Shown here in pieces: positions 10,047 to 37,796 of a stretch of DNA of 37,967 bases. The notes below the pieces were generated by a model. That model did not search any database. It was not told the DNA's origin and worked only from the letters and a program-made list of their open reading frames with translations. The DNA comes from a virus. The stretch's first letter is position 1. The number at the start of each line of letters is the position of its first letter. A program made the translations under genes and the position numbers. Location of the stretch: the IMG/VR virus record IMGVR_UViG_3300038825_000954, positions 1 through 37,967 of that record; one strand, written 5' to 3'.

Positions 10047-10458
10047 AGTACGCATCACAGTCCCTGGCGTTGCTGCGCCTAAAAGCATCCGCATCATTAT
10101 GAAGAACGGTCACCCAAGCATGGCGAACAACAAGAAAGTTCGAGCATGGATGGATGAGGTACGATGGGCAGCACATGGCTCTGAGTCTGCACCAGAGGGT
10201 GTTCCAGTAGGAATCATGGTAGATGTGTACCTTCCGTGGCAGAAGGCAACGCCTAAGAAGCTGGCTGCTACCACCGGAGCGCACGTACAGAAACCTGACA
10301 GTGACAACCTGCTTAAGCCCATCATGGATGCGCTCTCTGAAGCAGAGATTTGGCACGATGACAACCAGGTCGACAGGATCTTCCTGCAAAAGTGGAGATG
10401 TCCTCGTGGTGAGGAGCGAGTAGAGATTGTCGTTACTTGGGAAAGCTTGGAGTTTTAG
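10039..10458 (+). CDS. rusA: RusA-type Holliday junction resolvase
   Basis: A 139-residue protein with the RusA signature KPDSDNLLK (85-93), Asp97, and WHDDNQV (105-111). The acidic residues of these blocks (Asp87, Asp89, Asp97, Asp107, Asp108) form the metal-binding site of the family. It resolves branched recombination or replication intermediates before packaging. GTG at 10039 is preferred over TTG at 10021, with GAAAGAG (10023-10029) as ribosome site. Overlaps the previous gene by 8 nt. Confidence 0.85.
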   Translation: MTEVRITVPGVAAPKSIRIIMKNGHPSMANNKKVRAWMDEVRWAAHGSESAPEGVPVGIMVDVYLPWQKATPKKLAATTGAHVQKPDSDNLLKPIMDALSEAEIWHDDNQVDRIFLQKWRCPRGEERVEIVVTWESLEF

Positions 10459-10460
10459 CA

Positions 10461-11237
10461 ATGAAACATATCGTAATGTTTAGTGGGGGTATCGCATCGT
10501 GGATGGCTGCTAAAAGAGTGGCTGAAGAACACGGAACCGAGGATCTAATTCTTCTGTTTGCTGATACAGGTATAGAAGATGAAGACCTGTACCGATTCCT
10601 AGAAGAAGCAGCTGCAAATGTTGGTGGAACCCTGATTCGCTTGAAAGAAGGCCGAACACCTTGGGAGGTATTCCGTGATGTTAAATACATGGGCAACTCT
10701 CGCGTAGATCCGTGTTCCCGAGTCCTTAAGCGCGACCTTATTCGCAAGATGGTTGAAGATAACTATTCTTCAGACGAGACAATTATTTACATGGGAATGG
10801 ACTGGACTGAAGGACATCGCCTTACGCGAACAGCAGCAGCATGGGACCCGTGGGTAGTGAAGGCTCCAATGATGGAAAAGCCATTGATGATGAAGGAGCA
10901 GATGATGGAAGAATCGATCAAAGCTGGCATCGATCCACCACGACTCTACGACATGGGCTTTCCGCACAATAATTGCGGAGGATTCTGCGTGAAAGCGGGC
11001 CAGGCTCATTTCGCCCTGTTGCTTGAGCGTATGCCAGAACGATATGCAGAACATGAAGCTGAAGAAGCTAAGTTCCAAAAGTTCATAGGGAAGCCAGTAA
11101 CAGTGATGCGAGACAGGTCAGGTAAAAAAACCACGCCGTTATCTATGAAAGAGTTTCGCGAACGCCAAGAGCTATCTCGAGTGGGGTCGTTTGACGATTT
11201 AGACTGGGGTGGTTGCGGGTGTTTTGTAGAGAGCTAA
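10461..11237 (+). CDS. PAPS-reductase-like PP-loop protein
   Basis: A 258-residue member of the adenine-nucleotide alpha-hydrolase/PAPS reductase superfamily. PP-loop SGGIAS (8-13) binds ATP; a DTGIEDEDLY segment follows. CGGFCVKAGQ in the second half and GGCGCF near the C-terminus (Cys252, Cys254) are the characteristic cysteines of the phage subgroup. The true substrate is unknown; options are thiolation or another modification of a nucleic acid, or sulfur metabolism. Start ATG at 10461 after TTGGAG (10448-10453). It is the last gene of the early operon, followed by a terminator. Confidence 0.8.
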   Translation: MKHIVMFSGGIASWMAAKRVAEEHGTEDLILLFADTGIEDEDLYRFLEEAAANVGGTLIRLKEGRTPWEVFRDVKYMGNSRVDPCSRVLKRDLIRKMVEDNYSSDETIIYMGMDWTEGHRLTRTAAAWDPWVVKAPMMEKPLMMKEQMMEESIKAGIDPPRLYDMGFPHNNCGGFCVKAGQAHFALLLERMPERYAEHEAEEAKFQKFIGKPVTVMRDRSGKKTTPLSMKEFRERQELSRVGSFDDLDWGGCGCFVES

Positions 11238-11591: not shown

Positions 11592-11678
11592 CTAACACCG
11601 ATCGCAAACGTAAATGCCGAACCACAGGAAGACTCCGTAAACAGAGATCAACATAACTATCGGCATCCACTCTTTCAC
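11592..11678 (-). CDS. Possible 28-residue single-TM membrane peptide
   Basis: GTG at 11678 follows AAGGA (complement at 11688-11692) with 9-nt spacing. The product has a short KEW start, about 20 hydrophobic residues (MPIVMLISVYGVFLWFGIYV) and ends CDRC. It is the last gene of the leftward late region, 105 nt after tatC. It resembles a tiny holin-like or membrane-anchoring peptide; the function is unknown. The small size limits confidence. Confidence 0.4.
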   Translation of the reverse strand: MKEWMPIVMLISVYGVFLWFGIYVCDRC

Positions 11679-11783
11679 ACTAACTGTTCCTTAACCAAAC
11701 GCCCCCCGCCAGCCGAAGCCGACAGGGGACGCAAGAGGGCGGTCGCTCTGAAACCAGAGAAGAACAGAACGACCAGCAAATAG

Positions 11784-12695
11784 CTAGACCTGGTTATTCC
11801 ACCACACAATCTTCACGACACCCCACCGGACTGCCCTTACTGGTAAGCCTATAGCCCAACGTACCTTTCGGGCAAGCCAACCGACTGTTGATCTGACCGC
11901 CTTGTATATTTTGTTTAGCAACCGTCGCACCGTCTGGACCATAGGCAAGTCAGCAAAGTAATTGTCTTCCTCTCTGTGTGTAAGCCAACTAGCAACCAGC
12001 CCTATTTCATAGAGCAGCAGCATTGGTATGGCTACGAGTAGGGTCAGAGTTCCGTCAAGGGATGGAGTTATTAATGCAGCAAATATAAACGAAGTCGGGA
12101 TAATCCACTTGCGTAGCGTACTGGCCCTTGCATAAGAGACAACTCTGAACCTAGCCAAGAGTTGCATCACGATAGGTAATTCAAACGACACACCTATCCA
12201 GAAGATTAGCGACAGCAACAGAGCCATGTACTGATCGAGCAGGATTACAGGGACAGCAACCCCTGCTCCAAACGTAAGCAAAAAACTTAGAGACACCGGC
12301 ATCATCACGAAGAAAACAAATGATGCACCCAGGGCAAACATGCCAACAGACAATGCTGTGTATGTTGTTATAAATAACCAGAAGCGTCGTGGAACTAAGG
12401 GTCTGAGCATACTGAGTATGCCGACTATCAACACAGGCAGTGCTACAACCTGCCCACCTTTCATAGATAGACTTAGGGTAGCCCCGAACATATCGGGTAC
12501 GCCTGTGAAGATAGGTAAGCCTCCCTCAAAAGGGGATAGCATTTCCTCTGCGGGGGCTAGCAGGAAAGCGAACACCTGTGGATGCCACCAAAAAGTAGCA
12601 CCTGCCCCGATACTCCATGCCAAGATGCATAGGAATACAGTGTTCCGAAACCGCTGACCGAACTTATACCCCCGCTCGTAAGCGGAGAGAGTCAA
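11784..12695 (-). CDS. tatC: TatC-family protein translocase subunit with cationic C-terminal extension
   Basis: A 303-residue membrane protein with the six-helix TatC core (about 17-240). Conserved blocks: G-x-x-V-A-L-P-V (80-88), F-E-L-P (171-174, with the family's key Glu at 172), L-R-K-W ... AALITPS (195-212) and LLVAIPMLLLYEIGLV (219-234). The N-terminus lacks the usual HLxELRxR twin-arginine contact motif and reads YERGYKFGQRFRN. Beyond the core is a 60-residue tail; residues 257-303 contain 11 Arg/Lys, no acidic residue and five Trp, with VRW repeated. In bacteria TatC recognises twin-arginine signal peptides and exports folded proteins. TTG start at 12695, 3 nt after the stop of the small membrane gene before it. 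A phage copy is unusual. Confidence 0.85.
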   Translation of the reverse strand: MTLSAYERGYKFGQRFRNTVFLCILAWSIGAGATFWWHPQVFAFLLAPAEEMLSPFEGGLPIFTGVPDMFGATLSLSMKGGQVVALPVLIVGILSMLRPLVPRRFWLFITTYTALSVGMFALGASFVFFVMMPVSLSFLLTFGAGVAVPVILLDQYMALLLSLIFWIGVSFELPIVMQLLARFRVVSYARASTLRKWIIPTSFIFAALITPSLDGTLTLLVAIPMLLLYEIGLVASWLTHREEDNYFADLPMVQTVRRLLNKIYKAVRSTVGWLARKVRWAIGLPVRAVRWGVVKIVWWNNQV

Positions 12696-12698
12696 AAG

Positions 12699-12821
12699 CT
12701 ATGCGCCTTTGTCGGTCTTGTCTTTACTTTTCGTACCGTTCATCACACCGCTAATTGCTGTGTAACCAAGCACTGCTATTGCCAGCACTGCGATGCCGAT
12801 GATGATTGGGTCATTTGGCAT
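12699..12821 (-). CDS. 40-residue single-TM protein directly upstream of tatC
   Basis: Starts at ATG 12821 after AAGAGGGC. Four polar residues precede a TM helix (PIIIGIAVLAIAVLGYTAIS) and a Lys-rich polar tail (GTKSKDKTDKGA). Predicted N-out/C-in, as in TatA. The stop lies 3 nt before the TTG of tatC, so the two are coupled. It lacks the FG hinge and K-x-P motif of TatA, so the TatA-like role is only a hypothesis; a holin-like role is an alternative. Confidence 0.55.
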   Translation of the reverse strand: MPNDPIIIGIAVLAIAVLGYTAISGVMNGTKSKDKTDKGA

Positions 12822-12833
12822 TTTTTTGCCCTC

Positions 12834-12938
12834 TTATTTCTTTTTGATGTTCCCTATGTTGAGAACACCTAGCTTGTTTATCTTACCGGAAACATTCCGG
12901 CGTACAGAAGTAATTGAACTATCAAAACTACCCATCAT
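12834..12938 (-). CDS. Possible 34-residue basic peptide
   Basis: ATG at 12938 (second ATG at 12935) follows GAGAGG very closely. The product is basic, with VRRNVSGKINK and a KKK end, and is possibly amphipathic. It overlaps the end of the 55-residue membrane gene by 11 nt and fills the gap to the next gene, as expected in a compact operon. Evidence is positional only. Confidence 0.35.
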   Translation of the reverse strand: MMGSFDSSITSVRRNVSGKINKLGVLNIGNIKKK

Positions 12939-13095
12939 CCCTCTCGTGTTTATCAGGGTGAACACGGTTACGAAATATGATGCCCTCAAGGGTGTTATTT
13001 AACTCCAGCCTTGCTATTTTTACGGCTTGAACAACCGTGGCTGCGCCAACGATCGAGCCGATGAAGTATTTAAACATCCAACCTAGCGGGTGCAT
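12928..13095 (-). CDS. 55-residue membrane protein, TM helix plus amphipathic helix
   Basis: ATG at 13095 overlaps the stop of the lysine-rich gene (TAATG), with AAGAAG upstream. Residues about 7-26 are a TM segment (MFKYFIGSIVGAATVVQA), followed by an amphipathic stretch (KIARLELNNTLEGIIFR) and a charged tail (HPDKHERDDG). TM, amphipathic helix and charged tail is the layout of TatA/TatB, but the sequence lacks their signature. Otherwise a small phage membrane protein, for example holin or spanin-like, is possible. Confidence 0.55.
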   Translation of the reverse strand: MHPLGWMFKYFIGSIVGAATVVQAVKIARLELNNTLEGIIFRNRVHPDKHERDDG

Positions 13096-37653: not shown

Positions 37654-37796
37654 GCGTGACAAATGGCGTGACAAGCCGTGACAAGGCGTGACATCCATCT
37701 CAAAAAGATGTCACACCAGGCTTAAATCTGTCACAGCAACTAGCAACCAAACACTTACTAAGTGACACAGCGTGACAGGCTCCGTGACAGTGTCAC
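37654..37796. repeat. Array of ten GTGACA sites with helical phasing
   Basis: GTGACA forward at 37656, 37668, 37678, 37688, 37762, 37772 and 37784; reverse (TGTCAC) at 37709, 37729 and 37791. Start-to-start steps are 12, 10, 10, 21, 20, 33, 10, 12 and 7. Most are near multiples of one DNA turn. The last pair forms the 13-bp palindrome GTGACAGTGTCAC (37784-37796). Several forward copies are extended as GGCGTGACA. A cooperative protein-binding array, possibly an origin, packaging site or late-gene operator. Confidence 0.85.

Follow-up and report, generated by a model that had tools for sequence, protein, structure and literature searches.

The DNA analyzed here, which we call the window, is the virus record IMGVR_UViG_3300038825_000954 at its full length of 37,967 bases, with a GC content of 46.6%. 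We confirmed a block of six genes in the order P124-P55-P34-P40-TatC-P28 (Table 1), which we class as late by its position. On one side the block is flanked by RusA resolvase, exonuclease, and primase genes and on the other by tail-fibre paralogues, capsid, and terminase genes. A preliminary description of this DNA had noted, where the late region ends, a cassette in which TatC is embedded among tiny membrane proteins, with frames of 55, 34, 40, and 28 residues and coupled starts on one strand. It was right in both respects: all four frames are present on the strand of TatC, and the starts of P55, P34, and P40 overlap the preceding stop or lie close to it. The five frames that it listed were real, but it missed a fifth small gene, the conserved and charged P124, which stands at the upstream end of the block in all relatives with contigs long enough to include it. 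Another frame of 44 residues (11675-11809) aligned in some relatives and was inconsistently present, so it was not counted as a gene.

Table 1. Genes of the TatC cassette in the window
Gene	Product and start	Position	Strand	Features
P124	124 aa	13095..13469	-	N-terminal half rich in Lys and Ala; Pro stretch; C-terminal ~50 aa conserved and amphipathic-looking (LEELKEQGREAKQELVSAVIEPALEAAGSLSQTIRDTIGGAFAGLLSRKKRD)
P55	55 aa	12928..13095	-	N-terminal transmembrane helix, then charged tail
P34	34 aa	12834..12938	-	Basic peptide; start inside the end of P55
P40	40 aa	12699..12821	-	Single transmembrane helix, acidic N terminus, Lys-rich tail
TatC	303 aa, TTG start	11784-12695	-	PF00902 match; core residues conserved, receptor residues replaced; C-terminal tail of ~60 aa, cationic and rich in Trp
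P28	28 aa, GTG start	11592..11678	-	Single transmembrane peptide ending in CxxC; downstream of TatC

The P55 alignment contained the pattern MHPL.W..KYF...IVGAATVVQA, invariant in 11 relatives, and the AF2 model of P55 was a single helix spanning residues 3 to 45. P34 showed the conserved pattern M.SFDSS....RRN..GKINKLG.LN across relatives. P28 was found in the window, in L001, L002, L004, L006, and L009, and in the divergent cassettes L141 (7443-7538) and L157 (10307-10408), with lengths of 28 to 33 residues and Y14, G21, C25, and C28 invariant; its C-terminal CxxC is predicted by the positive-inside rule to lie outside the membrane. At the junction of P40 and TatC, the TAG stop of P40 is followed by one codon and then by the in-frame TatC start (window 12696-12701), an arrangement that was shared by L001-L016 and by two distant cassettes, L129 and L141, while the genes overlapped or were spaced otherwise in the other distant cassettes. 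A readthrough fusion of P40 with TatC is possible, but with a junction that varies in this way translational coupling is more likely. In an AF2 prediction of the fused protein, P40 was not placed on TatC, and the mean pLDDT values of blocks along the P40 helix were 56-70. Elsewhere in the window, a PAPS-reductase-like gene (10437-11237; phrog_424, 1.9e-48) runs convergently with the cassette and is absent from this place in the relatives examined, and close to the right end GTGACA/TGTCAC repeats are clustered (37656-37791), possibly as an origin or a regulator site.

Identity of the phage TatC and its partners

The profile search proposed in the preliminary description for the 303-residue protein returned a match to Pfam PF00902 (E = 3.4e-34; 118.9 bits over 210 aligned residues), well above the curated cut-off of 25.1 bits, and four distant phage TatCs scored 106.8 to 141.2 bits on the same profile. 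Among sequences of solved structures, the window protein matched the PDB TatC 4htt (1.9e-23). The clear TatC core that had been claimed was thus borne out, and the gene encodes a true TatC homologue. The AF2 model (pLDDT 83.6) retained the TatC fold, with Foldseek matches to 4b4a, 4hts, 9e01, and 9dzz at E values of 1e-10 to 2e-9 and TM (target) values of 0.70 to 0.75. On the NCBIfam tatC equivalog TIGR00945, which has a curated cut-off of 132.7 bits, the window TatC scored lower, at 101.3 bits, as did the divergent phage TatCs L141 (94.6) and L142 (131.5); L125 was just above it (133.1), and a Chloroflexi TatC used as a control (L056) reached 203 bits.

Residues were compared between 18 phage and 38 cellular sequences, in the numbering of E. 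coli/Salmonella TatC. As in bacterial TatABC systems (PF00902, TIGR00945), P48, P85, Y154, F169, P172, P209, D211 (the Asp of the P3 loop), and P221 were kept by all 18 phage TatCs, position 170 (acidic or Gln in TM4) was Glu in 15, Gln in 2, and Leu in 1, and E227 was kept by 15. In contrast, the signal-recognition residues (HxxELRxR, F94, Y100, and E103) were replaced in all phage copies. None of the 18 kept H12, E15, F94, or E103, whereas E103 was present in 38/38 and F94 and E15 each in 37/38 of the cellular sequences, and a second draw with 80 cellular rows gave the same result. In E. coli, TatC function is severely impaired or lost when F94, P97, L99, Y100, or E103 is substituted, the last by G or K (PMC3712464). 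The phage replacements are themselves conserved, with Arg in place of E15 in 17 copies, Pro at position 100 in 17, and Phe at position 103 in 12 but Glu in none, which points to a new function rather than decay. Additionally, the phage TatCs carry a long, cationic, and Trp-rich tail past the last transmembrane helix (median of 58 residues, net charge of +7.5, and 4 Trp, against 8, 0, and 0 in cells). For the window protein, AF2 predicts this tail as a single long helix. The cationic tail was absent from only one of the 18 phage copies (L127).

The small single-transmembrane genes upstream of TatC and coupled to it recall tatA-tatB-tatC, and the layout of the 55-residue protein had earlier been likened to that of TatA/TatB, although without their signature. 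A relation to TatA/TatB was not supported: neither P40 nor P55 had a TatA/TatB match in Pfam or NCBIfam, and hhalign of the two families against a small TatA/TatB profile gave no match. Among the open reading frames of the window and of 16 related stretches, none carried a consensus twin-arginine signal peptide. A looser RR scan, which recovered two positive controls, gave scattered chance-like hits, mostly in antisense or internal frames, and none was convincing. The cassette thus differs from bacterial TatABC in its partners, its lack of recognizable RR substrates, and its setting in a six-gene phage late block. The earlier suggestion of a phage-specific export system is weakened by the replaced binding residues and by this lack of a convincing encoded substrate.

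Recurrence of the cassette in other phages

A near copy of the block was found in 13 IMG/VR phage contigs, with TatC identities of 72 to 93% and with P124-P55-P34-P40 ahead of TatC wherever the contig extends that far. The major capsid protein, where present in the contig, was only about 29 to 31% identical to that of the window compared with about 72 to 79% for TatC, which ranks the block with the most strongly conserved regions of these genomes. Median dN/dS values were 0.08 for P40, the most constrained gene of the block, 0.14 for both P55 and TatC, 0.23 for P34 (outside the P55 overlap), 0.26 for P28, and 0.27 for P124, and all of the small genes are under purifying selection.

Seven further TatC lineages, 28 to 43% identical, were found on six contigs (L125, L127, L129, L141, L142, and L143, with a second copy on the L141 contig), and all seven kept the gene order of the window: a charged protein with an amphipathic-looking end, a short protein with an N-terminal transmembrane helix, a basic peptide, a single-transmembrane protein, and TatC. 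The single-transmembrane protein before TatC has 30 to 55 residues, an acidic N terminus, and a basic tail in these divergent cassettes. In L142 the second and third genes are apparently fused, and in L127 and the second copy on the L141 contig the third protein is longer and has a hydrophobic stretch of its own. Beyond the window group, the small proteins correspond in gene order and layout more than in sequence; the architecture of the cassette is old. The preliminary description had proposed looking for co-occurrence in related contigs and had named two findings that would speak against it, TatC absent or flanked by bacterial genes in relatives and small frames lacking conservation there. 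In the 13 contigs and seven distant lineages, TatC was flanked by phage genes and the small frames recurred.

Many related contigs (L124, L126, L128, L139, L140, L016, and L006) end or begin inside the cassette, as expected if high conservation breaks assemblies. One viral contig of 64,587 bases (G022; L158/L141 and L157:8505-10408) harbors two complete TatC cassettes that differ from each other and are separated by about 41 kb; they are either two cassettes in one phage or the product of a joined assembly. A membrane gene with a DedA/VTT domain (PF09335) lies convergently beside TatC in several relatives (L023:18433-18996(-), L025:15706-16269(-), and L159:925-1470(+)), and no such gene was seen in the window.

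Origin of the phage TatC, probable host, and earlier sightings

The 18 phage TatCs grouped as one clade (support 100/100) in a 56-sequence tree, on a stem of about 1 change per site, and the branch joining this clade with six Chloroflexota sequences had a support of 97/89. At E values of 1e-40 or better, the phage TatC profile found TatCs in 19 of 151 Chloroflexota genomes, 0 of 150 Pseudomonadota genomes, and 1 of 99 genomes from the phylum of an Ignavibacteriales MAG; in this sampling the other phyla were thinly covered and the Chloroflexota rows were picked by similarity, and the placement of the phage clade among Chloroflexota TatCs is probable rather than certain. A scan of the genome collection with the phage TatC profile detected no cellular or prophage copy of the clade. 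Of 400 Chloroflexota genomes, 18 were matched by the capsid profile at about 1e-58 and two others weakly, compared with none of 349 Pseudomonadota genomes and one weak match in 198 genomes of another phylum. Two Chloroflexota regions (L178 and L179) encode a capsid homologue 34 to 36% identical to that of the window, L179 also matches the window portal and terminase, and both regions are possibly prophages or gene-transfer-agent-like elements.

We infer from these similarities that the host of these phages, which are mostly marine, probably belongs to the Chloroflexota. The capsid of the window is also 35% identical to those of pelagiphages, which leaves a proteobacterial host as a less probable alternative. 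SAR11 in particular, suggested by the likeness of capsid and fibres to pelagiphages, is disfavored by the TatC tree, by the capsid search, and by the GC content of the window, which is far from that of SAR11. Within the Chloroflexota, SAR202 would be our guess. SAR202 isolates are monoderm and do not encode peptidoglycan biosynthesis (PMC10444878), and reconstructions date the loss of peptidoglycan in the Dehalococcoidia to a time before their marine radiation, while other Chloroflexota make it (PMC10284905).

In the literature covered there is one earlier sighting of a viral TatC. The legend of Figure 6 of PMC10564846 includes TatC among the annotations of two circular marine virus genomes, one of which (Virus_1) has a length of 39.7 kb and a GC content of 46.7%. 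These viruses resemble the window in combining TatC with primase/polymerase, portal, and terminase genes, in their circular genomes of about 35 to 40 kb, and in GC content; TatC is an annotation only there, with the gene, its neighbors, its residues, and its host left unanalyzed. The PHROGs family phrog_36238, to which no function is assigned, is TatC-like and was matched by the window TatC at 2.2e-13, but its profile scores cellular TatCs at 92 to 135 bits and the phage clade at 36 to 74 bits, and it was probably built from host-like TatCs. The TatCs of public phage records (L026, L027, L028, L029, and L030) were set aside as apparent contamination, since they lie among host genes (tatA-tatB-tatC operons, efe-like); the tat-bearing records that were opened were labeled Salmonella, Acinetobacter, Listeria, Staphylococcus, and 'Bacteriophage sp.' We found no analysis of any phage TatC in the literature covered, which excluded most subscription journals and all bioRxiv preprints.

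Lysis context and possible functions of the cassette

By comparison with related pelagiphages, the cassette occupies a position equivalent to that of their endolysin gene. In HTVC010P, three fibre paralogues with 35 to 54% identity to those of the window are followed by a peptidase M15 gene, and in HTVC111P, with a capsid 35% identical to the window capsid, a lysozyme gene comes after the gene for the fibre. With P55, P40, and P28, tiny transmembrane proteins stand at the end of the late region as in holin-endolysin cassettes, but the main component here is a TatC homologue and no endolysin was found. The earlier remark that no endolysin is seen agrees with our searches: Pfam and PHROGs detected no peptidoglycan hydrolase among the window proteins tested or, among the matches listed, in related contigs.

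Of the two functions suggested earlier, membrane permeabilization fares better than export, as a putative activity. We tentatively read the block as a TatC-derived, membrane-permeabilizing exit module, the most probable of the readings considered here but still less likely than not. The fuller proposal, that in phages of Chloroflexota without peptidoglycan a captured TatC became a permeabilizing complex that needs no substrate and has its own tiny partners in place of holin and endolysin, is more doubtful. In the exit-module reading, a late phage module would have been built on a TatC taken from the Chloroflexota, which would still assemble in the membrane, with P40 and P55 standing in for TatA/TatB, and would act without waiting for a substrate with a twin-arginine signal. 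The complex would then weaken the host membrane late in infection, with the C-terminal helix of TatC in the inner leaflet or disturbing it, P124 and P34 binding from the cytoplasm, and P28 acting on the outer face. In a host without peptidoglycan, such as marine SAR202, membrane failure alone could free the virions, which would explain why no endolysin is present. The loss of cargo recognition, the membrane-active-looking tail, the tiny transmembrane partners, the endolysin slot without an endolysin, and a plausible wall-less host speak for the exit module. Against it, strong constraint has preserved the transport-linked residues E170, D211, and E227. A Tat complex that works, or one that blocks, would need them, and they fit an altered translocase or an inhibitor of host Tat almost as well. 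Large unannotated virion proteins may also hide an unrecognized hydrolase, the host and the lateness of the block are deduced (the latter from position only), Chloroflexota other than SAR202 can make peptidoglycan, L127 lacks the cationic tail, and modeling did not place P40 on TatC.

A phage translocase of altered specificity, in which TatC with P40 and P55 as TatA/TatB analogues would export or insert proteins without a twin-arginine motif, is in our judgment rather unlikely; its cargo could be phage or host proteins, such as a small cassette protein or a protein acting on the S-layer. The conserved TatC core with D211 and E170 speaks for it, as does P40, the most constrained gene, which with its single transmembrane helix and acidic N terminus lies directly upstream of TatC and translationally coupled to it, in the tatB slot of bacterial operons (tatA-tatB-tatC in Salmonella, the order used for comparison). 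DedA proteins have been connected with Tat-dependent export in E. coli, and the DedA/VTT gene beside TatC in several relatives would fit here as well. However, a translocase has to contend with signal-peptide-binding residues replaced in 18/18 copies, with the lack of any Tat-signal substrate in the open reading frames of the window and related contigs, and with partners that have no TatA/TatB homology.

The phage TatC could instead act as a dominant-negative inhibitor that enters the TatC/TatA complexes of the host and, because it cannot bind signal peptides, blocks them, which would stop the export of respiratory or surface proteins, exclude other phages, or redirect energy. A fold and core largely kept around a lost substrate site, and an origin on the Chloroflexota side of the tree, are what such a protein might show, and E. 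coli TatC must oligomerize in order to function (PMC5102672), which makes such poisoning plausible. We nevertheless consider inhibition improbable, since it leaves unexplained both the cationic tail and the four or five small proteins that always accompany TatC across lineages of about 30% identity, and since the phage TatC has long diverged from any host TatC. That the gene is ordinary host cargo or an assembly chimera, as the contaminated public records might suggest, is extremely improbable: the same block with phage flanks recurs in the 13 contigs and seven distant lineages, its TatCs form a separate clade with replaced receptor residues, and TatC is likewise annotated in a circular marine virus genome (PMC10564846).

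Overall, TatC has been treated as a cellular housekeeping subunit, and here a phage clade lacks the cargo-reading residues, keeps the rest, and is accompanied by a constant set of tiny proteins. This suggests the capture of an export machine for a new role, perhaps the disruption of the host membrane for phage release, and the function remains putative on the sequence data. As a natural separation-of-function variant, the phage TatC could reveal which activities of TatC remain when signal peptides are not bound, and the cassette is a possible marker for phages of the Chloroflexota, whose viruses are poorly known. If the exit module is true, it would explain how tailed phages are released from wall-less bacteria such as SAR202, which are abundant in the dark ocean.
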